Below are positions 1 through 34,047 of a DNA stretch of 64,000 bases, piece after piece. Both the position numbers and the translations under genes were made by a program. Source of the stretch: a virus; the IMG/VR virus record IMGVR_UViG_3300021962_000023, positions 1-64,000 of that record; one strand, 5' to 3'. The notes beneath the pieces were generated by a model, which saw nothing but the letters and a program-made list of their open reading frames with translations, ran no database searches and was not told where the DNA came from. How positions within the stretch are numbered: position 1 is the stretch's first letter; the number at the start of each line of letters is the position of its first letter.

Positions 1-47
1 CCCTAAATGCACCAAAAACATTTGTGCTACCGCTACACCATCGGGCA
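1..47 (-). tRNA. tRNA-Gln(TTG), 3' part cut by window edge
   Basis: The acceptor 5' strand (TGCCCGA), a D arm with AGCGGTA, and an anticodon arm AATGT/GCATT around loop TTTTGGT are present on the minus strand. The T arm and 3' end lie left of the window. It is the last visible tRNA of the leftward array. Confidence 0.85.
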
Positions 48-128
48 ATAATCTCAAGCATTCTACTCCCCGCAGTACGGAATTGTATCTTACTTAGCCC
101 ATCGTTAGCGGTATGGGTACTTGAGTTG

Positions 129-200
129 AGCAGATGATAGGAATCGAACCTACGTCTCCTACTTGGAAGGAAGGAGTAATGACCATTATACGACATCTGC
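129..200 (-). tRNA. tRNA-Gly(TCC)
   Basis: Acceptor GCAGATG pairs with CATCTGC. The T loop is TTCGATT and the anticodon loop CTTCCAA. The anticodon stem has one T-T mismatch. No CCA is encoded. Confidence 0.9.
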
Positions 201-256
201 ATTTAGTGGATGAACAACATCTATCGTTCTTTTGGCTTCCCACTAAAGCCCATTGG

Positions 257-329
257 AGCGGAAGACCAGATTCGAACTGGCGACCTATTGCTTGGCAAGC
301 AATCGCTCTACCAACTGAGCTACTTCCGC
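257..329 (-). tRNA. tRNA-Gly(GCC)
   Basis: Acceptor GCGGAAG pairs with CTTCCGC, the anticodon loop is TTGCCAA with stem ATTGC/GCAAT, and the T loop is TTCGAAT. CCA is encoded just downstream (254-256), unlike most tRNAs here. A GTGTAGG/CCTACAC hairpin (335-341 with 351-357) lies just upstream of it. Confidence 0.93.
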
Positions 330-468
330 AATTTGTGTAGGATACGCCCACCTACACCACACTTTTAGTAGTATGTTACCACACTACCACGTTTCGAGTT
401 GTTTAACGACCTACTCTAAATGTCATCCGCCAGGGTGTGCTTCACGTTAAACCCGGAGACGCTTATGG

Positions 469-542
469 TGGACCAAACAGGGCTCGAACCTGTGACCTTG
501 TCGTTATGAGCGACCTGCTCTAACCATCTGAGCTATAAGTCC
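469..542 (-). tRNA. tRNA with CAT anticodon, probably tRNA-Ile2 (lysidine type)
   Basis: Acceptor GGACTTA pairs with TTGGTCC, the discriminator is A and CCA is encoded (466-468). The anticodon loop is CTCATAA. The body (GGAC start, TAGCTCAGATGGTTAGAGCA, AAGGTC variable region) resembles bacterial tRNA-Ile2 more than elongator Met, so after C34-to-lysidine change it would read AUA codons. The Ile2 assignment is inference. The CAT anticodon is certain. Confidence 0.85.
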
Positions 543-671
543 AAATTATAGAAAGGATTCGGGTCTTTCAGGGTTACTGATGATGAATGCGGGCTTAAAG
601 TCGTACTACTAACCCTTTTTCAAACCTATACCCCATAAGTTCATCATTACAGCTTCACTACCTTTCTATTG

Positions 672-744
672 TGGAGGTACAGAGATTCGAACTCTGGATT
701 CCTGCGTGCAAGGCAAGTGTGTTAGCCAACTATACCATACCCCC
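672..744 (-). tRNA. tRNA-Ala(TGC)
   Basis: Acceptor GGGGGTA pairs with TACCTCC, anticodon stem CTTGC/GCAGG encloses loop CTTGCAC, and the T loop is TTCGAAT. No CCA is encoded. Confidence 0.9.
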
Positions 745-749
745 AATCG

Positions 750-834
750 TACTCGGGGCCGGACTCGAACCGGCACGGACCTTTCGGTCCAAAGGATTTT
801 AAGTCCTTCGTGGCTACCATTACACCACCCGAGC
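750..834 (-). tRNA. tRNA-Leu(TAA)
   Basis: It has a class II variable arm (GGACC-GAAA-GGTCC). The anticodon stem AGGA/TCCT encloses a loop with TAA, and acceptor GCTCGGG pairs with CCCGAGT (G-T end pair). The Ala tRNA 3' to it is only 5 bases away. Confidence 0.92.
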
Positions 835-836
835 AT

Positions 837-1079
837 TTAATATCCTATTTCATCTTTAATCTTCCATTGGGTATCGTGTGGAATTCGTTCAATTCTTTCA
901 ACTGGAACAAACCCATCAAACCCACTTTCTTTAACATCTTCAAAATGTTCAATGGTGTCCAAATAGAAACCAAATGAATATCTGATGTATTGGAATTTAT
1001 CACCATCCCAATATGCCACATGGTTGTTTCTACTAAACCCGTTATACCAGCCTTCCTTTATTTCACTTTTTGGTATCAT
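837..1079 (-). CDS. small hypothetical protein within tRNA array
   Basis: An 80-residue soluble protein starting MIPKSEIKEG, rich in aromatic and acidic residues, with no signal peptide or membrane segment. The tRNA-Leu gene starts 3 bases past its stop and tRNA-Arg(TCT) ends about 20 bases upstream. It therefore fills the gap between tRNAs exactly, as inserted phage genes often do. The amphipathic sequence and full use of the gap support coding. I recognise no family. Confidence 0.6.
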   Translation of the reverse strand: MIPKSEIKEGWYNGFSRNNHVAYWDGDKFQYIRYSFGFYLDTIEHFEDVKESGFDGFVPVERIERIPHDTQWKIKDEIGY

Positions 1080-1099
1080 AATAACTTTTTTAATTTACG

Positions 1100-1173
<74 letters not shown>

Positions 1174-1178
1174 ATATG

Positions 1179-1252
1179 CGGTGTATACGAGATTCGAACT
1201 CGTGGTCTCTTCCGTGACAGGGAAGCATGTTAGGCCTCTACACCAATACACC
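1179..1252 (-). tRNA. tRNA-Asp(GTC)
   Basis: Acceptor GGTGTAT pairs with ATACACC, the discriminator is G as expected for Asp, and anticodon stem TTCC/GGAA encloses CTGTCAC. Confidence 0.93.
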
Positions 1253-1370
1253 AAATTTTCGGAACTTATGGATTTTCACCACCGAAATCTCTTCTCCCAA
1301 CTAGCCTCATTGAGTGAGTGTTATCGCGTAATTCGTCATTCCTAATCTAAAGTAATTAATTTTAGATTTG

Positions 1371-1443
1371 AGCCTCCAGTCGGAATCGAACCAACGACCT
1401 ACTGATTACAAATCAGTTGCTCTACCTGCTGAGCTATGGAGGC
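1371..1443 (-). tRNA. tRNA-Thr(TGT)
   Basis: Acceptor GCCTCCA pairs with TGGAGGC, anticodon stem CTGAT/ATCAG encloses TTTGTAA, and the T loop is TTCGATT. An AATCTAAA/TTTAGATT hairpin lies just 3' of it. Confidence 0.93.
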
Positions 1444-1451
1444 AATTTGTA

Positions 1452-1487
1452 GTAAGAGAGATGTCACAGCCACCTCATCTCTCTTAC
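1452..1487 (-). ncRNA. 12-bp hairpin in tRNA spacer
   Basis: GTAAGAGAGATG (1452-1463) is perfectly complementary to CATCTCTCTTAC (1476-1487) with a 12-base loop. No U-run follows on either strand, so it is not a plain terminator. A second weaker repeat (TCACATA at 1492-1498, TATGTGA at 1539-1545) fills the rest of the spacer. It is probably a processing signal or a small stable RNA between tRNAs. Confidence 0.5.
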
Positions 1488-1549
1488 CTATTCACATACT
1501 AACGGCTCAATGTGGCTTGACCGAATTAAAGTGGCTGATATGTGAGTTG

Positions 1550-1623
1550 TACTCCGTACGGGGTTCGAACCCGTAAGCTCTCCCGTGAAAGGGGAGTGTC
1601 CTAACCAATTAGACGAACGGAGC
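1550..1623 (-). tRNA. tRNA-Glu(TTC)
   Basis: Acceptor GCTCCGT pairs with ACGGAGT, anticodon stem CTCCC/GGGAG encloses CTTTCAC, and the T loop is TTCGAAC. It is the first tRNA after the promoter at 1658-1689. Confidence 0.93.
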
Positions 1624-1657
1624 GTTACTTATTAAACCATTATTTCAAAGAACATTA

Positions 1658-1689
1658 CAAATATACGAAAAGTTTTTTATAATGTCAAG
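1658..1689 (-). promoter_or_regulatory. Bacteroidetes-type promoter for the distal tRNA block
   Basis: On the minus strand the -33 TTGAC is followed after about 20 bases by CG and the -7 element TATATTTG. Transcription would start near 1651 and run into tRNA-Glu. Confidence 0.7.
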
Positions 1690-1709
1690 TACTTTTATAT
1701 ATTTATTTT

Positions 1710-2165
1710 TTACATTTTTACTAAATGGTCCGCACAATATGTTGCGATTGGACCTAAAGTTTTGTATCGTACATTATAACCCATACCTTCAACCATACCT
1801 ACCGCTTGTCTGAACACTTCATTAGATTTGTATTTAGGGTCTGGATTTAAATCCACATCAATCCAAGTTGCTTTTTGAACTCCGGCATTTCGTAATTCTT
1901 CTGCTACTTCAACTGAAAACCAAACTTCATTTAATAATCTTACTGAACGAGTGTACTCTCTCGGTGCATTCCACCGATTGTATAATACATGCGCTCCTCT
2001 ACCTGGCGTATATAATGCTACAACAATTGCATAGATAGTTTTATCTCTGAAGTTTTGTGAATCACATCCAATTAGTATTTCAACTCCTTCATGTTCATTC
2101 ATATATTCAGCGATATATGTTTCTAATTCAACTTTCGTTCCATCATGTAGTTTTCTATAAACCAT
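1710..2165 (-). CDS. DUF458/YkuK-like RNase H-fold protein
   Basis: The protein shows the DUF458 (YkuK) signature: IGCDSQNF near the N-terminus, a PGRGAHVLYNRW segment, WIDVDLNPDPKYKS, and VGMVEGMGYNVRYKTLGP near the end. This family has an RNase H-like fold with conserved Asp residues. Its substrate is not settled. I chose the ATG at 2165 (MVYRKLHD, 151 residues). An in-frame ATG at 2189 would place the first codons inside the adjacent tRNA-Leu(TAG) gene. It sits alone between tRNA blocks, which suggests a role linked to RNA metabolism, but that is inference. Confidence 0.8.
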   Translation of the reverse strand: MVYRKLHDGTKVELETYIAEYMNEHEGVEILIGCDSQNFRDKTIYAIVVALYTPGRGAHVLYNRWNAPREYTRSVRLLNEVWFSVEVAEELRNAGVQKATWIDVDLNPDPKYKSNEVFRQAVGMVEGMGYNVRYKTLGPIATYCADHLVKM

Positions 2166-2182
2166 ATCATTATTATTTATTG

Positions 2183-2257
2183 TACCCATAGAAGGACTCG
2201 AACCTTCAATTGTGTGGTGTCTAAAGCCACTGCGTATTCCAATTCCGCCATACGGGT
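2183..2257 (-). tRNA. tRNA-Leu(TAG)
   Basis: Acceptor ACCCGTA pairs with TATGGGT, and the Leu-like D arm has GCGGAATTGG. The anticodon arm GTGGC/ACCAC encloses TTTAGAC, with a C-A mismatch at the loop end. The variable region is only about six bases, short for Leu. Confidence 0.78.
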
Positions 2258-2266
2258 GTGTTTCCG

Positions 2267-2352
2267 TAGAGAGTAAGGGGTTCGAACCCTTGCGACTTTT
2301 ACATCCTACCTGTTTAGCAAACAGGCCCCTTCACCAACTTGGGTAACTCTCT
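2267..2352 (-). tRNA. tRNA-Ser(GCT)
   Basis: Acceptor AGAGAGT pairs with ACTCTCT, anticodon stem CCTGT/ACAGG encloses TTGCTAA, and there is a long class II variable arm. It is the only Ser tRNA in the window. Others may lie to the left. Confidence 0.92.
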
Positions 2353-2356
2353 ATTG

Positions 2357-2431
2357 GGGTGATTAATGGGATTCGAACCCATGCTATCAGTACCACAAAC
2401 TGACGTGCTAACCGCTAACACTATAAACACC
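2357..2431 (-). tRNA. tRNA-His(GTG)
   Basis: Anticodon stem TCAGT/ACTGA encloses TTGTGGT, acceptor GGTGTTT pairs with AATCACC with one T-T mismatch, and the T loop is TTCGAAT. Confidence 0.88.
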
Positions 2432-2499
2432 ATATTTTGTATAATATATTATTCATTTACCCCTAAATACCAGGGGTTTGTATCATATATTATACATCG

Positions 2500-2569
2500 T
2501 TGCATGTATGAGGTTCGAACTCATTTGGTCATCCTTATGAGAGATAACTCTTTTCCTCTAAGCCATGCA
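2500..2569 (-). tRNA. tRNA-Met(CAT), probably elongator
   Basis: Anticodon loop CTCATAA lies in a weak TATCT/GGATG stem. Acceptor TGCATGG pairs with ACATGCA except for a G7-A66 mismatch, and the T loop is TTCGAAC. With the initiator (5713-5783) and Ile2-like (469-542) copies assigned, this is most simply elongator Met. Confidence 0.8.
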
Positions 2570-2574
2570 GTTTG

Positions 2575-2646
2575 AGTCAAGTATTGGATTCGAACCAATG
2601 TAAAAGGTTTTGCAGACCTCCACCTAACCAACTCGGTCAACCTGAC
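2575..2646 (-). tRNA. tRNA-Cys(GCA)
   Basis: Acceptor GTCAGGT pairs with ACTTGAC, the discriminator is T as expected for Cys, D stem is ACC/GGT and anticodon stem GAGGT/ACCTT encloses CTGCAAA. Confidence 0.9.
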
Positions 2647-2653
2647 ATTATGT

Positions 2654-2723
2654 AGTCCTATTAGGATTCGAACCCAAACTTCTTCATCCGTAGTGAAGGG
2701 TGCTATCCGTTACACCATAGAAC
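2654..2723 (-). tRNA. tRNA-Arg(ACG)
   Basis: Acceptor GTTCTAT pairs with ATAGGAC, anticodon stem CTTCA/TGAAG encloses CTACGGA. A34 would need host TadA to become inosine. Confidence 0.9.
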
Positions 2724-2728
2724 CATTA

Positions 2729-2926
2729 TTACTTCCATTGAGTTTTTCGGTTGTGTTTCCAACTTTTATACTCTCTGAACTTATGTGAATAAATTGGTTT
2801 ACCATTTCCATGTCTACCCCAAATCTTTGATGGTGCACAATCATAATACCAACTACCACATCTTTTAGAACAAATGAAACAATAGTTCCATTCCATTCTC
2901 ATTCGTTTTACTCTTTCTTCTTTCAT
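2729..2926 (-). CDS. small Cys-rich, probably zinc-binding protein
   Basis: A 65-residue, strongly basic protein with a CFICSKRC motif near residue 16 followed by a single later Cys (YYDCAPSK), Trp- and Lys-rich towards the end. The CxxC pair suggests a small zinc knuckle. It exactly fills the gap between tRNA-Arg(ACG) and the tRNA-Trp block. The start could also be Met9 or Met11. Family not recognised. Confidence 0.5.
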   Translation of the reverse strand: MKEERVKRMRMEWNYCFICSKRCGSWYYDCAPSKIWGRHGNGKPIYSHKFREYKSWKHNRKTQWK

Positions 2927-2988
2927 TTTACATTAGGTTTGTTTACCTAATGCTTGTCAAATAATTGTTTCATAGTTTTACATTTTTG

Positions 2989-3059
2989 CACCCCCTAAAG
3001 GATTCGAACCTTTATCTGCGGTTTTGGAGACCGATATGCTACCATTGCACCAAAGAGAT
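2989..3059 (-). tRNA. tRNA-Trp(CCA)
   Basis: Anticodon stem CGGT/ACCG encloses CTCCAAA. Acceptor ATCTCTT pairs with AGGGGGT through several G-T wobbles, and the discriminator is G as expected for Trp. Confidence 0.9.
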
Positions 3060-3063
3060 ATTT

Positions 3064-3136
3064 AATACGAACATTGACCGGGTTGTGGGTATTCTCCACT
3101 ACTAGTCAGGTTTCAGCCACCCGGTTGATTCGTATT
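3064..3136 (-). ncRNA. structured spacer between tRNA-Ile and tRNA-Trp
   Basis: An outer stem AATACGAA/TTCGTATT (3064-3071 with 3129-3136) encloses an inner stem ACCGGGT/ACCCGGT (3077-3083 with 3119-3125). The spacer can therefore fold as one closed unit the size of a tRNA, but it is not a tRNA. It may be a small stable RNA or a processing signal. Confidence 0.5.
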
Positions 3137-3137
3137 G

Positions 3138-3211
3138 TTGGTAGTGCGGGATTCGAACCTGCCACCTTCTCGGTATCAGCGAGATGCTCTAACCAAATGA
3201 GCTAACTACCA
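3138..3211 (-). tRNA. tRNA-Ile(GAT)
   Basis: Acceptor TGGTAGT pairs fully with ACTACCA, anticodon stem TCTCG/CGAGA encloses CTGATAC. Confidence 0.93.
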
Positions 3212-3217
3212 GTGTTG

Positions 3218-3294
3218 TCGGAATGGCTGGATTCGAACCAACGAGTTCTCCACGTCCCAAACGTGGCGGGGTAACCTGACTCCCCAACATTCCG
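3218..3294 (-). tRNA. tRNA-Pro(TGG)
   Basis: Acceptor CGGAATG pairs with CATTCCG, anticodon stem CCACG/CGTGG encloses TTTGGGA. Confidence 0.93.
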
Positions 3295-3343
3295 TTATTG
3301 TACTTCCTATGTGCAGAGTTGTCTAGTACTAACCATTCTCCAG

Positions 3344-3417
3344 TGAACCCGAATGGACTCGAACCATTGACTCCCTCATTAAAAGTGAGGTGCTCTAACC
3401 GACTGAGCTACGGATTC
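3344..3417 (-). tRNA. tRNA-Lys(TTT)
   Basis: Acceptor GAATCCG pairs with CGGGTTC, anticodon stem CCTCA/TGAGG encloses CTTTTAA. Confidence 0.93.
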
Positions 3418-3480
3418 ATAATAAAGTTATTTCTGTCTAATAAAGATAATCACTTTATTGTTCAAATATCACTTTAGTTG

Positions 3481-3553
3481 TGGAGCCTCAAGGAATCGAA
3501 CCTTGTCCTCTAGTTCTTCAGACTAGCGTACGCACCAGCTATACCAAAGCTCC
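3481..3553 (-). tRNA. tRNA-Phe(GAA)
   Basis: Acceptor GGAGCTT pairs with AGGCTCC, anticodon stem CTAGT/ACTAG encloses CTGAAGA. Confidence 0.93.
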
Positions 3554-3559
3554 ATTTTG

Positions 3560-3641
3560 TGCCGCCGGTAGGACTCGAACCTACGAACTCCGAAGAGGAG
3601 GGATTTACAGTCCCTTGCAATTGCCACTATGCGACGTCGGC
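3560..3641 (-). tRNA. tRNA-Tyr(GTA)
   Basis: Anticodon stem AGGGA/TCCCT encloses CTGTAAA, with a class II variable arm (CTCC-TCTTC-GGAG). Acceptor GCCGACG pairs with CGGCGGC with one A-G mismatch. Confidence 0.92.
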
Positions 3642-3650
3642 GTTAAATGG

Positions 3651-3724
3651 TAGAAGATATAGGATTCGAACCTATGACCCTTTGGATGTAAACCAAATGC
3701 TCTAACCGACTGAGCTAATCTTCT
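3651..3724 (-). tRNA. tRNA-Val(TAC)
   Basis: Acceptor AGAAGAT pairs with ATCTTCT, anticodon stem TTTGG/CCAAA encloses TTTACAT. Confidence 0.93.
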
Positions 3725-3730
3725 ATTTTG

Positions 3731-3802
3731 AGGGAAGGGAGAATTTCGAAATCTCGACCTGATGATTAACAGTCATCCGCTCTGCCTCTGAGCTACCAAC
3801 CC
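3731..3802 (-). tRNA. tRNA-Asn(GTT), with stem mismatches
   Basis: Anticodon stem GATGA/TCATC encloses CTGTTAA. Acceptor GGGTTGG pairs with CCTTCCC only through its G-C ends, with two T-T mismatches in the middle. The T stem has T-T where G53-C61 is nearly universal. It may be decaying or need RNA repair or editing. Confidence 0.75.
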
Positions 3803-3803
3803 A

Positions 3804-3843
3804 AAACAAAAAACCCCTTAACTTTGTTATCAGTTAAGGGGTT
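3804..3843 (-). terminator. intrinsic terminator of the structured noncoding unit
   Basis: AACCCCTTAAC (3812-3822) pairs with GTTAAGGGGTT (3833-3843), an 11-bp stem. On the minus strand it is followed by TTTTGTTTT. It separates the upstream noncoding transcript from the tRNA-Asn block. Confidence 0.75.
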
Positions 3844-3875
3844 CTTCAAATATTTTCTATTTAAATCTTACATCA

Positions 3876-4034
3876 TTATCCTTTGTTGATGTCCCTTAAC
3901 TTTGTACTAATATAATCCACCTTGCCTAAATTCAAGACTGCCGGATTTGCTATCGTACTAAACATACCAATCCCTTGCCACTCATTTCTTTGAGTTGCCA
4001 GTGAACAAATTGTATGTAAGTTAAGAGTTTTCAT
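3876..4034 (-). CDS. possible small protein at the 3' end of the noncoding unit
   Basis: A 52-residue frame beginning MKTLNLHTIC, ending ISTKLRDINKG, lies between the structured RNA and the terminator. Its start follows an A/T-rich leader (ATATTAACA before ATG) like those of other genes here. A longer in-frame start at 4118 gives an improbable Phe/Tyr-rich N-terminus, so I use 4034. No family recognised. It may be noncoding. Confidence 0.4.
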   Translation of the reverse strand: MKTLNLHTICSLATQRNEWQGIGMFSTIANPAVLNLGKVDYISTKLRDINKG

Positions 4035-4119
4035 TGTTAATATATATCTAAAAAAATAATAATCGTTTGTTTTTATAAAAAAAAGTAATTCAATTTCAAA
4101 ATACGCCAACCAAGTCATG

Positions 4120-5415
4120 CTCTGGTTAATATCAGCCTCATTAAATTACTTTTACTAATTAGCTAAAAGAGGAAAGTTTTGTAGGGTGGTACTTTCCAAA
4201 GGCCTAGCTACAGCCGTTGATTACCATCAACATAATTCGTATTGTTGAGATTGTTTAAGGTAAAAATCCCCTACGGAAAACCATACTATTCTATATTTGT
4301 CATTTTTTATTTAAGTGGAACTTTTAGTTATGGAAAGTACATCCAGCTATCTACATTAAACCACTACGAAGAGCGGTGCGAAGGTTTTGCTCCCCCTCCT
4401 CCTATCTGGAATGATAGGCGTGCTACTATTACACCAATACCGCTTATATAAGGATGAGAATACTCCTTTTTGTGAACCAGCTTTCGAAAGATTATTGTTT
4501 CCTTTCTTTTCCACTTCCTTTTGAGAAGTACCAATTCAATGTGGGTTGGTAATGCCAACCAATCATAGAGTTTCAGATTACTCTCTCCCTACTTATTTTC
4601 TTCAACCCTGCCGAGCTGATTCACACTTGCGATGTTAGAAACCTTTCAAAAGAATCACAGACCTCTTGCGGAGGTATCGTGGCAGGGAACAACTCCCTAC
4701 TATGTACACACCTTTCATCTGAAACTGGTAAACACTTTTGCTCTTTTAGTTTTATAGTTTGCACCTAAAGCAAATTTGAGTTTTGGTTTGTAGATGGATT
4801 CGAGTAGTGGTTTACCACCAGCTCCGTTATCTTTTGAACAACAGAATACTTTACTACTCAATGTGATATCCCTATCACCATACTTCAAGTCATCTTCAAT
4901 AGAAGGGATTGGTGTCCCAGTCTAAAGGATAATAACAACACCACTTGTACATTATCTTATCTTGCGTCCTTTCGGATAGCTTGATTCTCAAGACCACTTT
5001 AGTATTGAATCACGCAATGATAAGGAGAGATTAAGTCCTTACTTCTCACAATAATTCTATGAGTTATTCTTATTGATGTTCCCATCTCAACTGAACAATC
5101 TACATTTGCCCAGTCATTCCGGCTCTTCGATGATAGTGTTACCCCCACCTACAAAGTCAGAATGATATCTCACTTGCCTACTTGAGCTTGCTCTCTTTTG
5201 GAGAGTAGCCGCAAACCGTCTAACCAAACGATTCACTTTATCCTACTTTCGTAGTTTATTTCACGACCATAGGCGGCCGTTGTTACACTATGTAGAACGA
5301 ATCTACTATGTGTAATCTTTTTACGAATAATTGAAATGTTGTACATTTAATGGGCGTCTTATTTACGATTAGTCTACTATCCCACAATTATTATATGTTA
5401 AAGAACTTTTGTTTT
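4120..5415 (-). ncRNA. giant structured noncoding RNA (GOLLD/ROOL-like candidate)
   Basis: About 1.3 kb has no plausible gene but many perfect inverted repeats. Examples: GTTTCAG/CTGAAAC (4570-4576 with 4719-4725) enclosing CCCTGCC/GGCAGGG (4606-4612 with 4681-4687) enclosing ACCTC/GAGGT (4661-4675); GTGATA-TCCC-TATCAC (4863-4878); CTTATC-TTGCGT with ACGCAA-GATAAG (4956-4967 with 5012-5024); GGTTGG/CCAACC (4544-4560); TTACAC/GTGTAA (5283-5315). Tandem promoters lie upstream (5423-5686) and an intrinsic terminator downstream (3804-3843). Giant ornate RNAs of the GOLLD and ROOL classes are known from phages, often beside tRNAs and sometimes containing one. Here a tRNA-like element sits at 4372-4443. 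Assignment to a known class is inference. Confidence 0.6.
4372..4443 (-). tRNA. tRNA-like element, Gly(TCC)-like, noncanonical D and T loops
   Basis: A 72-base cloverleaf can be drawn: acceptor GCGGTAT/GCACCGC, D stem GTGT/GCAC, anticodon stem CCTAT/ATAGG, T stem GGGGG/CCTTC. The D loop AATAGTA lacks the G18-G19 pair and the T loop is AGCAAAA instead of TTCRANN, so the elbow contact is lost. The anticodon loop CATTCCAG has eight bases (or six if its ends pair) and contains TTCC. It is not a normal tRNA: either a decayed tRNA-Gly or a tRNA mimic inside the structured RNA. Confidence 0.5.
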
Positions 5416-5422
5416 GTTTTAA

Positions 5423-5453
5423 CAAATATACGAAAACTTTTTCAAACTTCCTA
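5423..5453 (-). promoter_or_regulatory. promoter P-a of the structured RNA unit
   Basis: The minus strand carries -7 TATATTTG (5430-5423) preceded by CG and AGTTTT, and a weak -33 TTAGGAAG. The predicted start near 5416 opens straight into the noncoding region. Confidence 0.65.
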
Positions 5454-5529
5454 ATATTTTTAAAACTTTTTTTTTATAAATTTGAATACCGAGTATCTTT
5501 CATCACCTATAAGTTTCTCATTTACTATG

Positions 5530-5561
5530 TAAAGATAATACTTTTTTTTCAGATTTCCAAA
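5530..5561 (-). promoter_or_regulatory. promoter P-b upstream of the structured RNA unit
   Basis: On the minus strand -33 TTTGG is followed after 19-20 bases by -7 TATCTTTA. It is one of three tandem promoters within 265 bases. Confidence 0.6.
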
Positions 5562-5654
5562 TAAACTTTCAAATTTATTTTAATTTTTTTTGTTGAACAT
5601 TTTCAGCTATGTTTACTTACACCATATATGCTTCTTACTTCTGAATCAACAATA

Positions 5655-5686
5655 CAAATATACGAAACTTTTTTCATATATCCAAA
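5655..5686 (-). promoter_or_regulatory. promoter P-c, 3' of the initiator tRNA
   Basis: -33 TTTGG and -7 TATATTTG on the minus strand, 20 bases apart. The short RNA it starts can fold through GTTGA-TTCAG pairing with CTGAA-TTCAAC before the next promoter. Confidence 0.7.
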
Positions 5687-5712
5687 TAATTTTTCAATTA
5701 TTTTTTCTTTAG

Positions 5713-5783
5713 TTGCGCAGGAAGGAATCGAACCTCCATCTCTGGGTTATGAGCCCTGTATGCTACCTTTACACCACCGCACG
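5713..5783 (-). tRNA. initiator tRNA-fMet(CAT)
   Basis: The anticodon loop is CTCATAA. The acceptor CGTGCGG faces CTGCGCA, so position 1 is C and 72 is A and they cannot pair. The anticodon stem ends in three G-C pairs (GGG/CCC). The C1xA72 mismatch and the three G-C pairs are the two hallmarks of bacterial initiator tRNA, used by formyltransferase and for P-site entry. It stands apart from the main array with its own promoter. Confidence 0.88.
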
Positions 5784-5914
5784 ATATAATTTATAAGAAC
5801 TTTTACAAAATGGTAAGTGATATCCGGCTTTATTAACCCCCTACATATAGAGGAAGTAGTCACTCATTCGGTTTTATTAGATGATGGCTTCAACCACTCT
5901 CTCATTTTGTTATA

Positions 5915-5946
5915 CAAATATACGAAAGTTTTTTTTAACTTCCAAA
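5915..5946 (-). promoter_or_regulatory. promoter for initiator tRNA
   Basis: -33 TTTGG and -7 TATATTTG on the minus strand. The transcript leader (about 5908-5784) has a possible closing stem (ACAAAATG with CATTTTGT) and two tiny overlapping frames of 13 and 8 codons, which may be chance. Confidence 0.7.
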
Positions 5947-9409: not shown

Positions 9410-9780
9410 TGGTGGAGATGGACGGAGTCGAACCGTCGTCCAAAATATGGTTTAATAAACCTCATTCACAAGCTTAGTCAGTTTTTCTTAACTGACAAAA
9501 TAGATAAAGATTTATACATTCGTTATCATTAATGTTTCCAATTCGATTTTGGGTTCAATTGGTATCCACCTGGATTCACATTCTATTTCAAGTCCCATGA
9601 TGTGTACGGGAGTGACTATGCAGCTACTGCTAAATCAGCACCAACGAATGCCATAGCATCTTCGAAGGTCATTGTAGATAATTCTACTGCGTTTATTGTT
9701 CGATAGGTGTTTAAGGATTTCCATCTAATCCTGCTTGCAATTATACTAACACTTCATACCTGTCAAAACCGGGCATCCCC
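9410..9780 (-). ncRNA. ssrA: transfer-messenger RNA (tmRNA)
   Basis: The 5' end GGGGATGCCCGG and 3' end GGACGACGGTTCGACTCC-GTCCATCTCCACCA form the tRNA-Ala-like half, with acceptor GGGGATG facing CATCTCC and CCA encoded. The resume codon GCA follows AATAAAC at 9690. The tag frame runs to a TAG at 9616-9618 and encodes 24 residues: AVELSTMTFEDA then MAFVGADLAVAA. Most tags are about 8-15 residues and end ALAA. This one is long and ends AVAA. The mRNA-like part is followed by several hairpins, as expected for tmRNA pseudoknots. No smpB gene is visible in the window. Confidence 0.9.
9616..9690 (-). other. tmRNA tag reading frame
   Basis: 24 codons plus TAG, from resume codon GCA to GCA-TAG. The last residues (LAVAA) are small and hydrophobic, as needed for ClpXP-type recognition. 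Confidence 0.75.
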
Positions 9781-29044: not shown

Positions 29045-30725
<1,681 letters not shown>

Positions 30726-30777: not shown

Positions 30778-33700
30778 TTATTTTCCAAAGATATAACGAA
30801 TACCTAATTGAGCACTCCACACATCAAATACTGATGAATTGTACTGATAAGTATCTCTAGCTAAGATAGTAGAACCATCTGCTAATTTTTGAGTTGCCAT
30901 CTTATAAACTGGTTCACCATTTGTCACAGTTGAGTAGTTTAAGATAGTTGGGATAGTTGCTCTTTGAGAAACACCCCACTCATTATTCAATAAGTTACCA
31001 AAGTTTAAGATATCTGCTCTGATTTGGATAGTGTTCTTTTTACCTTTAACATTCACATAGATATCTTGTACAACCGATAAGTCGAATCTATGTAACATTG
31101 GTAAGAATGAACCATTTCTTTCAGCGTATTGTCCTCTACGGGTAGATAAATACTCATCTTGTCCGATGTAAGAATCAAATGCTGCTTGTTGTTCAGCTTC
31201 AGTATAAGTTCTTGTACCTACTACCAATGGTGCGAATTTGATATCAGAACCTTTGTTTGGTACAAAGATTAACTCATTATTAGAGATTCTATCTCCGTTC
31301 ATATCTCCACCGATTGTGTAAGAGAAAGGAGAACCCTGATTTCCTACATAACCTAATGTGAATGAAGTTGCTCCACCCATACCTTTACCATATTCTAATC
31401 TATATCCTAACAAACCAACTAAACGATTTGGAGATAAGAAATCCGAATTGGATAAAGATAAATCATTATTACCATTGATACTTCTAGCACCTGTCCAAGA
31501 ACCACTAGCGATTGAACCTGCACTCATAAAGTCTTTAGCATCTGAAACTGTCCATGCGAATGAACCGAAAATACCTTTTTGATATGGATATTCTAATTTC
31601 AATGTCAATGAATTGAAACGAGTATTATCTGAATTAGTTAATACGATTGCGTTTGAAACATTACCATTTACTCTAACACCAGCATCAGTTCCTGCATACT
31701 TTGCTCTCTTATCAACTCCTGCGAATACACCAGTTGGAACGCCAAAGTTTGCGTTGTAATAATGAACTGCATTTAAGTTTACATTTTGGATATATTCAGC
31801 CGTACCGATGAAACCAAATGGTAATTTTTGGTCAACTGCGATATTTGATTTCCAAACTTGTGGGAACTTATAGTTCTCTTCAGTAAATGCTAAATCAAAT
31901 GTGGATGGTAAAGTTGGAGTTGATGGAATAAAGTATTTGTTAGGGTCAGCGGTGAAACCATATTTAGCTGCTGCTGAACCACTCACATCGATATATCCTG
32001 TCAATACACCATTGTTACCAACTTGGTTTGAAATGAATACATATGGAGGTCTACCAGTGAAGATACCCGTACCACCTCTAACTTGCGTTTTTCTATCACC
32101 AAATACATCGTGATTAAATCCGAAACGAGGTTCAAAAAGTGTTTGTGTTTTTGGTAACACACCTGTATTAAATCTCAATCCACCTGCGAATGTCATTGCT
32201 GATACCGCTGGATTTTCTAATGCAGTTTGTTCGAATGAAATAACTGCCGCTCTTAAACCAAAAGTAAACTTTAAGTTTTCAGTTGCTTGGAATTCATCTT
32301 GTCCGTAAACATCCAATCTATCAGTTTTCAATGTTTGCATTGGGTCAACTGCTCCTGGTAATGCCGAATAACGGAATTGGAAACGAGCTGGAACTAATGT
32401 AGAAGGTGCTCCACCATTTGCTAATGATTGATTAGCTGCTGTGTAGAAATCATTTAAACTATTGAAGATATAAACACCATTAGATGCTGGGAAGAATAAG
32501 TTATTAGATTGATACTTCTCATAGTTGAAACCAAATGTTAAAGTGTGTTTGTCTGCATACTTTGTTAAGTTGTTTGTAATATGGAAAGTATTGTAATCTA
32601 ACTTATTTCCTGGAGTGAATGGGTCAAAACCCACTGATGTAAGAGTTGTTGCACCATCTTTAATATCAATCGTTGGGAACATTTGAGAACGATACGCTCT
32701 ATCCTCAATCTGCTTGTCATATCCAACGATTAAGTTATTATGTAATGTGTTTGATAATTTAGAGTTCAATTCCAATACATAAGAACGAGTGTTATCCATA
32801 ATAATGTAACCACTATTTTGGAAACTCATTGCTAATGCCGAAGTTGTTCTATTACCAAATCCTGCAGATGTAGAGTTTGAAATATTAATCTCTGCATCAG
32901 AATCATGTTGTACATAACGAGCCGTTAATTTATGCTTATCATTGATGTTCCAATCCATACGAATCAAAAACTTCTTTGATGTATTTGCGTTGGAATATCC
33001 TTCAAACGGACCCGTTGTGTAGTTAAACTTATCTTGCATAAATTTAGATAAGTCCGATAATTGTGTATAAGTTGGTCTACTAACTTGCGAACCTGTCAAT
33101 GGAGAACCTGTTGAAATCCAAGTTGTACCTGGTTCAGTTTTCTCAATTTGTTCGTAGTTACCAAAGATGAATAATTTGTTCTTAATGATTGGTGCACCTA
33201 AACGGAAACCTTGTACCTTCTCATCAAATTTGGATGCCGTTACTTTAGTTCCTCTAGCGTTATCACCTACATATGTAGAACTATTATTTCTTTGTGTTTG
33301 ATATACAGAACCTTCAATTTCGTTTGTACCACTTCGTGTTACTGCATTGATACCTGCGCCAGTAAACCCACTCTGACGAATATCAAAAGGTGCAATATTA
33401 ACCTGAAGTTGCTCAATCGCATCTAAAGAGATTGCCGATGCTCCCGTTCTACCACCTGCCTGTGCAGATGAACCTAAACCGAATCCATTATTGAATTGAG
33501 AACCATCAATTGTAAAATTGTTCAAACGAGAATCTTGTGCTCCGAAAGAGTTTCCGTTTCCGTTTGGATTGTATTTAGTAATACCATCGATTGTTCTTGC
33601 TCCCGTAATTGGAATGTTTTGTAAATCTCTACGAGTAAATTGTTGAGATGCACCTGTTCTTTCTCTCGATATAATATTGTTTCGAGTAGAAACTACAACA

Positions 33701-34047
33701 ACCTCTTTTAAGGTTTTGTTCTCATCAACTAATAAGAAATTCACATTTGATGTAATACCTAATTGAGTATTAACATCTGTAACTTCCTCTTTCTTCGTAC
33801 CAACAAATGTTGCTTGAATTGTGTAAGGTCCTCCTACTCTAACAGCAGGTAACACATAACTACCCAACTTATTGGTAGATGTAGAATACTTCGTACCAGT
33901 TGGAGTGTGTACTGCTTGGATTGTTGCTCCAACCAACACTTCGTTTTTCTCATTCTTTACAACACCTGAAATTGAGGAAGTGGTTACTTGTCCAAATCCT
34001 ACAAAAGCAGATACTGAAAGGAGAAGCGATAAAATCACTTTTTTCAT
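30778..34047 (-). CDS. TonB-dependent outer-membrane receptor, Oar-like
   Basis: 1089 residues, complete. Signal peptide 1-19; carboxypeptidase-regulatory-like beta domain about 21-105; Ton-box-like LKEVVVVST near 113; plug with TGAGINAVTRSGTNEIEGSV and PFDIRQSGF; then a 22-strand-type barrel with aromatic turns, ending QLGIRYIFGK. This arrangement is that of Oar/SusC-type transporters. Promoter is not clear upstream; a terminator (34087-34118) precedes it, so read-through or a weak promoter is likely. A phage-encoded TonB receptor is very unusual. Confidence 0.9.
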   Translation of the reverse strand: MKKVILSLLLSVSAFVGFGQVTTSSISGVVKNEKNEVLVGATIQAVHTPTGTKYSTSTNKLGSYVLPAVRVGGPYTIQATFVGTKKEEVTDVNTQLGITSNVNFLLVDENKTLKEVVVVSTRNNIISRERTGASQQFTRRDLQNIPITGARTIDGITKYNPNGNGNSFGAQDSRLNNFTIDGSQFNNGFGLGSSAQAGGRTGASAISLDAIEQLQVNIAPFDIRQSGFTGAGINAVTRSGTNEIEGSVYQTQRNNSSTYVGDNARGTKVTASKFDEKVQGFRLGAPIIKNKLFIFGNYEQIEKTEPGTTWISTGSPLTGSQVSRPTYTQLSDLSKFMQDKFNYTTGPFEGYSNANTSKKFLIRMDWNINDKHKLTARYVQHDSDAEINISNSTSAGFGNRTTSALAMSFQNSGYIIMDNTRSYVLELNSKLSNTLHNNLIVGYDKQIEDRAYRSQMFPTIDIKDGATTLTSVGFDPFTPGNKLDYNTFHITNNLTKYADKHTLTFGFNYEKYQSNNLFFPASNGVYIFNSLNDFYTAANQSLANGGAPSTLVPARFQFRYSALPGAVDPMQTLKTDRLDVYGQDEFQATENLKFTFGLRAAVISFEQTALENPAVSAMTFAGGLRFNTGVLPKTQTLFEPRFGFNHDVFGDRKTQVRGGTGIFTGRPPYVFISNQVGNNGVLTGYIDVSGSAAAKYGFTADPNKYFIPSTPTLPSTFDLAFTEENYKFPQVWKSNIAVDQKLPFGFIGTAEYIQNVNLNAVHYYNANFGVPTGVFAGVDKRAKYAGTDAGVRVNGNVSNAIVLTNSDNTRFNSLTLKLEYPYQKGIFGSFAWTVSDAKDFMSAGSIASGSWTGARSINGNNDLSLSNSDFLSPNRLVGLLGYRLEYGKGMGGATSFTLGYVGNQGSPFSYTIGGDMNGDRISNNELIFVPNKGSDIKFAPLVVGTRTYTEAEQQAAFDSYIGQDEYLSTRRGQYAERNGSFLPMLHRFDLSVVQDIYVNVKGKKNTIQIRADILNFGNLLNNEWGVSQRATIPTILNYSTVTNGEPVYKMATQKLADGSTILARDTYQYNSSVFDVWSAQLGIRYIFGK

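Follow-up and report, generated by a model that had tools for sequence, protein, structure and literature searches.

A complete GOLLD RNA in a putative Bacteroidota phage, with a tRNA-like element as candidate release signal at its 3′ end

What is made from a 1.6-kb promoter-to-terminator unit that sits in a phage tRNA array and seems to hold no gene? This question was raised by a 64,000-nt stretch of viral DNA (hereafter, the window), which is part of a virus record of 198,534 bases. ARAGORN called 23 tRNAs within positions 1-5783 of the window, all on the minus strand, as is a tmRNA at 9410-9780 in the same region. The unit (3804-5686) is flanked by tRNA-Asn (3730-3802) and tRNA-Met (Table 1). 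From the letters alone, the original prediction had proposed a giant structured RNA in a Bacteroidetes phage, belonging to GOLLD, to ROOL or to a new class.

Identity and extent of the RNA

The RNA of the unit is a GOLLD RNA. A search with the Rfam models of both candidate classes, suggested at the outset as a check, matched RF02032 (GOLLD) at 4861-4451 on the minus strand with 297.9 bits against a gathering cut-off of 150 (E = 3.2e-84), covering model positions 1-416 of 416. The ROOL model, for an RNA that is likewise large, cage-forming, phage-borne and near tRNAs, had no match in the window, nor did it appear when 3700-5800 was scanned with Rfam at an E threshold of 5; other Rfam families were considered for the RNA and likewise gave no match. 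The 416-position model covers the GOLLD 3′ domain alone and equals the corresponding domain of GOLLD env-38 in size, the two env-38 domains being nt 1-420 (5′) and nt 421-833 (3′) (PMC12286853).

To delimit the whole RNA, we used a pattern scan of IMG/VR, which returned at least 119 GOLLD-like stretches, and an alignment of the 64 best-aligned dereplicated loci, comprising the window and 63 other phage loci (individual loci are given L numbers below). Conservation in this alignment was sharp from ~5286 to 4447, with little further upstream, and we therefore take the full RNA to be ~836 nt long: a two-domain RNA at ~5286-4451 (minus strand), its 5′ domain measuring 425 nt and its 3′ domain 411 nt. 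This agrees with the GOLLD class, whose members exceed 800 nt and have a 5′ domain that is less conserved. The length of 1.3-1.6 kb predicted originally was an overestimate, as the RNA proper (~0.84 kb) occupies about half of the 1.6-kb unit. The fold of 5418-4447 was better than that of shuffled sequences (z = -3.4). Several relatives (L021, L123 and L124) have a tmRNA in the same orientation, with 175-415 nt separating its end from the point downstream where the GOLLD alignment starts. Matches to the window GOLLD were also found by blastn in two unannotated huge-phage records of 630-640 kb, LR756502.1 (434648-435031) and LR745206.1 (420436-420663), one matching the 3′ domain and the other the 5′ domain.

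Alignment columns were scanned for mutual information with no fold assumed. Of the 50 column pairs that covaried most strongly, 42 belonged to the consensus fold and 48 were complementary, compared with 14% of random pairs. Each of 36 listed helices had at least two pairs changed on both sides, and 21 of these helices were in the 5′ domain. Lack of covariation and a conserved long reading frame had been named in advance as signs against a structured RNA; over GOLLD, covariation was strong in both domains and no conserved long frame overlapping 5286-4451 was found. A protein-coding region that merely resembles a non-coding one could point to the conserved short ORF further downstream, but with sequence changes over 5286-4451 that track RNA pairing and no long frame there, it is the least credible reading that we considered. 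Size, promoter, terminator and tRNA neighbourhood, taken alone, would be compatible with ROOL or with a new class of large RNA. Given a full-length GOLLD match far above the cut-off, no ROOL match and a 5′ domain common to 63 other GOLLD loci, this alternative is very improbable, and it is refuted for the core (5286-4451). Of the classes first put forward, it is GOLLD that the Rfam match, the shared 5′ domain and the covariation in the 64-locus alignment bear out.

The alignment also gave candidate kissing contacts. A long-range contact of 4741/4740 with 4669/4668 appeared as GC:GC, GG:CC or GA:UC across 63 of 64 loci and is probably intermolecular bridge B7 of PMC12286853, mapped by position rather than by alignment to env-38. 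The hairpin loop 4631-4626 switches from CGCAAG to GUCGAA, a GC/CG change, which fits the self-kissing bridge B8, again matched by position and not by env-38 alignment; a loop switch has been reported for this bridge in GOLLD (PMC12286853). Of the inverted repeats noted earlier, five pairs with arms of 10 nt or longer were present. One pair (4717-4726/4569-4578) is a true GOLLD helix, and another (4140-4153/4081-4094) closes a separate element, described below as element C.

GOLLD env-38 was solved as a 14-mer cage with its linker inside the cage (PMC12286853). Compared by size and position, rather than by direct alignment of the 5′ domains, the window RNA is like env-38 in its full-length 3′ domain, a 5′ domain of 425 nt as against 420, an unpaired linker in the matching place, probable kissing-loop contacts of like kind, and a setting in a phage genome with a tRNA array. 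Unlike env-38, it has no tRNA in its linker, as judged by ARAGORN on the window, but a tRNA-like element directly behind its 3′ end, and its unit goes on to include two more structured elements and a short ORF. By analogy with the GOLLD family, the window RNA would be expected to form a cage.

Table 1. Features of the GOLLD unit and its surroundings, in window coordinates except where a locus is named
Feature	Position	Strand	Basis or remarks
Promoter motif TTTCGTATATTTG copy, upstream of tRNA-Met	5915-5927	-	Motif scan
tRNA-Met (CAU), last tRNA before the unit on the upstream side	5712-5783	-	ARAGORN
Second promoter motif copy, between GOLLD and tRNA-Met	5655-5667	-	Motif scan
GOLLD-unit promoter motif, TA-N2-TTTG type	5423-5435	-	Motif scan
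Variable 5′ leader, ~130 nt (inferred)	5287-5417	-	Many gaps and low conservation in 64-locus alignment
GOLLD 5′ domain (likened to the cap domain of env-38)	4862-5286	-	Conservation across 64 dereplicated loci; double changes in 21 helices
GOLLD 3′ domain (RF02032 positions 1-416)	4451-4861	-	Rfam match, covariation
A-rich unpaired GOLLD linker	4737-4805	-	Between helix arms 4816-4806 and 4736-4727
Degenerate tRNA-like element, 73-nt four-arm cloverleaf	4372-4444	-	Predicted fold, covariation in relatives
Element B, conserved block	4171-4371	-	GTAGGG/CCCTAC closing helix, hairpin whose loop (UAGCUA) is a palindrome
Element C, small structured RNA, core AACCAGAGCATGACTTGGTTGG	4083-4151	-	12-bp closing helix then U run; covariation
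Element C relatives	L017 1845-1910; L254 2350-2420; L260, L243, L279 and others		
52-aa ORF MKTLNLHTICSLATQRNEWQGIGMFSTIANPAVLNLGKVDYISTKLRDINKG, MKTLxLHT...W.G...F	3876-4034	-	Conserved in 20 distinct loci
Intrinsic terminator closing the GOLLD unit	3807-3848	-	17 pairs then U run

Transcription unit, host and neighbouring elements

Three copies of the motif TTTCGTATATTTG occur around the start of the unit, all on the minus strand. When at most one mismatch was allowed, 7 matches were found in the window versus 0.35 expected. Exact copies numbered 6 in the whole 198.5-kb record, all on the same strand (window positions 1658, 5423, 5655, 5915 and 63030, and G000:C1:154034), with four of the six in the tRNA/GOLLD region, one of these four immediately upstream of tRNA-Glu. 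Three tandem promoters had been expected within 5423-5686; three near copies do exist, but the third lies outside that range, upstream of tRNA-Met. Transcription would start near 5417. Among the 64 loci, 59 carried a TANNTTTG box no more than 350 nt upstream of GOLLD, versus 10 in shuffles; this is the kind of promoter known from Bacteroidota. The upstream tRNA-Met was considered as a 5′-end processing site and rejected, since a promoter lies between tRNA-Met and GOLLD in most loci. At the other end of the unit, the anticipated terminator proved to be real (Table 1).

A host-like, full-length outer-membrane beta-barrel protein of 1089 aa is encoded at 30778-34047 (minus strand). Along its length it shares 74-76% identity with Sediminibacterium/Chitinophaga-type proteins, encoded in Sediminibacterium and related Chitinophagaceae metagenome-assembled genomes (MAGs). 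This protein and the promoter type support assignment of the phage to Bacteroidota, in agreement with the original prediction. Because of the 74-76% identity, the host is likely a freshwater relative of Sediminibacterium; a search for GOLLD in two Sediminibacterium genomes found none. The protein perhaps has a role in receptor change or superinfection exclusion. Elsewhere in the window, also on the minus strand, are a protein with an S-adenosylmethionine lyase-like domain (PF23780; 7189-7890), which is possibly anti-restriction, and a 539-aa ORF (29045-30664) that looks, from its sequence, like a GroEL-type chaperonin.

The part of the unit downstream of GOLLD holds further conserved features. 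Element B was kept in ~10 close relatives with a few double changes. It is no more than a candidate for a strongly structured RNA, as its own fold was no better than shuffles (z = -0.2) and the known relatives number 10. Element C matched its model with 73.4 bits in the window. Its closing helix contained 7 covarying pairs, its second inner helix covaried across all groups, and its hairpin core was nearly fixed; the flanks formed a helix at p ≤ 0.05 in 41 of 49 distinct copies. The core (AACCAGAGCATGACTTGGATGG within the covarying helices) was found in 48 IMG/VR stretches. Copies occur in phage tRNA arrays both where GOLLD is present and where it is absent: some are upstream of GOLLD, and many are in arrays with no GOLLD nearby. 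Rfam gave no match to the element in 14 loci that carry it, and blast against named phages yielded chance matches only. Element C could be a processing element, a riboswitch or a ribozyme.

Absence of any credible gene from the unit held for GOLLD itself, which is non-coding, but a conserved 52-aa ORF had been missed. Across 20 distinct loci, its indels were in frame and its dN/dS was ~0.5, below that of both other frames; no Pfam match was found for it. It belongs to a fast-evolving MK(T/A)LxLHT...W family of 22-53 aa that is encoded behind GOLLD and is also present in L213 (681-748).

A tRNA-derived element behind GOLLD

Seven nucleotides past the last GOLLD hairpin (4466-4452) begins a tRNA-like element, at 4444-4372. 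Its minimum free energy fold (-24.2 kcal/mol) is a four-arm cloverleaf with a paired acceptor, and it resembles tRNA-Gly(UCC). The anticodon loop has 6 nt, the T-loop reads AGCAAAA instead of TTCRANY, and T-loop and D-loop carry non-canonical residues (A18 and G55). ARAGORN did not call it as a tRNA, and the Rfam tRNA model (RF00005) gave no match even with the E threshold relaxed to 5. Within the degenerate group of elements, G18 and T55 change together (to A or C, and to G, respectively), an observation that leaves their contact possible.

We scanned for the 3′ hairpin of the window's GOLLD clade, which gave 37 distinct downstream sequences, one of which (L209) was a false match and was left out. 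A tRNA-derived element lay directly behind GOLLD in 34 of the 36 distinct loci of the clade when the degenerate kind was included. It is not indispensable, because L003 and L108 are without it. Some of these elements are tRNA-Gly genes called by ARAGORN, others are tRNAs with 6-nt or 4-nt anticodon loops, and a third form comprises window-like cloverleaves (L086, L010, L210, L234, L208 and L226). The fourth form is a mini-tRNA of ~45 nt, which keeps an acceptor helix, AATGGTT as a remnant of the D-loop, and a T-arm of canonical type; it has no anticodon arm. Behind GOLLD in L109, L090 and L223, the tRNA-Gly(UCC) accepted by ARAGORN has G for U before the anticodon (loop CGTCCAG) and may be unable to decode.

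In 13 mini-tRNAs, 100% of pair cells were standard and four of seven acceptor pairs had double changes, and pairing was destroyed when partners were slid. In 15 cloverleaves, 96.4% of cells paired and 11 pairs changed on both sides; the acceptor covaried, and the elbow pair 19-56 (G19-C56) was G-C in 14 and A-U in one (L231). Across relatives, the anticodon is lost, but covariation is seen in the acceptor and elbow pairs. When 6.2 Mb were searched strictly, mini-tRNAs were confined to GOLLD 3′ ends, bar two other matches: part of a tRNA-Pro gene (L213) and a nearly identical sequence in L267.

Could the element instead be a relic, that is, an array tRNA-Gly in decay beside a GOLLD whose 3′ end is made by exonucleases or other endonucleases? 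The array has a canonical tRNA-Gly(UCC) elsewhere (128-200), which would leave the copy beside GOLLD free to decay, and intact, half-broken and mini forms coexist. However, decay should break helices, whereas acceptor, T-stem and elbow pairs were kept through double changes. The confinement of the mini form to GOLLD ends within the 6.2 Mb searched and the presence of tRNA-Met or tRNA-Thr at the same 3′ position in other GOLLD lineages also speak against decay, and we consider it unlikely.

Beyond the clade, we applied a strict descriptor requiring an acceptor and T-arm element that starts 4-20 nt downstream of GOLLD; a looser version was discarded because AT-rich shuffles passed it. The strict element was found in 23 of 67 dereplicated GOLLD 3′ ends from all lineages, versus 0.32 in shuffles, although one of the 23 (L036) looks spurious. 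At positions shifted by 150 nt it occurred in 0 of 66, and at 300 and 450 nt in 2 and 5 of ~65, respectively. Spacing of the 3′ element behind GOLLD varied from 7 to 18 nt. Other GOLLD lineages have either an intrinsic terminator or a tRNA 7-18 nt downstream, even when the locus has a single tRNA, and most have an intrinsic terminator within the first 100 nt after GOLLD. Part of the adjacency of GOLLD and tRNAs is context, since tandem tRNAs occur in such arrays anyway.

Proposed maturation and its implications

RNase P reads the acceptor helix, T-arm and elbow of precursor tRNA. Because these are the parts retained behind GOLLD, we propose that RNase P cuts there. RNA polymerase would start at the TA-N2-TTTG promoter near 5423 and read GOLLD, the tRNA-like element, the two structured blocks and the short ORF before stopping at the 3807 terminator. 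Host RNase P would then treat the tRNA-like element as a processing signal and cut where it begins (the predicted site is between 4445 and 4444), which would release GOLLD and define its 3′ end. Once free, the RNA would fold into its two domains and self-assemble into a cage like that of env-38. In terminator-bearing lineages the cut would be unnecessary; many other GOLLDs end by terminator alone, which counts against the proposal, as do the variable spacing of the element, its absence from L003 and L108 and the tRNA-rich context. The non-canonical A18 and G55 of the window element could also weaken recognition by RNase P. We still regard RNase P cleavage at the element as the simplest account and the probable source of the GOLLD 3′ end. 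To the account as a whole, a complete ~836-nt GOLLD in a Bacteroidota phage that forms a cage and is released by RNase P at a tRNA-like signal, we assign a probability of roughly 60%, and the same to the RNase P step by itself.

An element that remains attached to GOLLD as a working domain, where it might bait tRNA-binding factors or be cargo on a tether, would also account for an elbow kept without an anticodon. A pseudo-tRNA has been predicted inside the GOLLD gene of some mycobacteria, with no expression of it seen (PMC6582537), and linker tRNAs of GOLLD have been proposed as cage cargo (PMC12286853). The window shares with the mycobacterial case a large tRNA cluster and a link to a pseudo-tRNA, but its element lies just behind the 3′ end and has helices that covary across relatives. 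Its position outside the GOLLD fold, rather than in the linker, and the exchange of the element for tRNA-Met, tRNA-Thr or a terminator in other lineages make a working domain improbable.

For release by RNase P, the nearest precedent is MALAT1-mascRNA, offered here as an analogy. In MALAT1-mascRNA and NEAT1-menRNA, tRNA processing of a tRNA-like element makes the 3′ end of a long non-coding RNA (PMC12941219, PMC9777231). The arrangement is alike, with a long non-coding RNA followed immediately by a tRNA-like element whose role in 3′-end formation is known there and proposed in the phage. Unlike the phage RNA, MALAT1 and NEAT1 are animal nuclear RNAs, with no homology to it, and cutting in the phage is a proposal.

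The GOLLD class itself was already known; what is new here is the conserved tRNA-derived element at its 3′ end. No account of GOLLD end formation was found in the open-access full texts that were searched, a body that leaves out the 2009 discovery paper and a mycobacterial survey (PMC7549688), so that an earlier mention of 3′-flanking tRNAs is possible. It may be, at slightly less than even odds in our judgement, that GOLLD is the first bacterial or phage long structured RNA with a 3′ end made by tRNA-processing enzymes. In that case phages would have pared the adjacent tRNA down to the minimum that makes an RNase P substrate (acceptor, elbow and T-arm, no anticodon), kept solely for release of the cage RNA, in a unit that also holds the undescribed element C, found in GOLLD-free phage tRNA arrays as well.

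To our knowledge, GOLLD, a class whose expression rises during lysis, has a solved cage structure and no known function. A 3′ element that is fixed in place, kept in shape and stripped of decoding allows a direct test of how GOLLD RNA matures, and it offers a reason why GOLLD genes adjoin tRNAs. Its position would also supply the exact 3′ end to use when the structures of other GOLLDs are studied. According to a study from 2025, MALAT1 and NEAT1 are the sole long non-coding RNAs matured through tRNA processing (PMC12941219). If the proposed release is true, the phage case would break that exclusive status.
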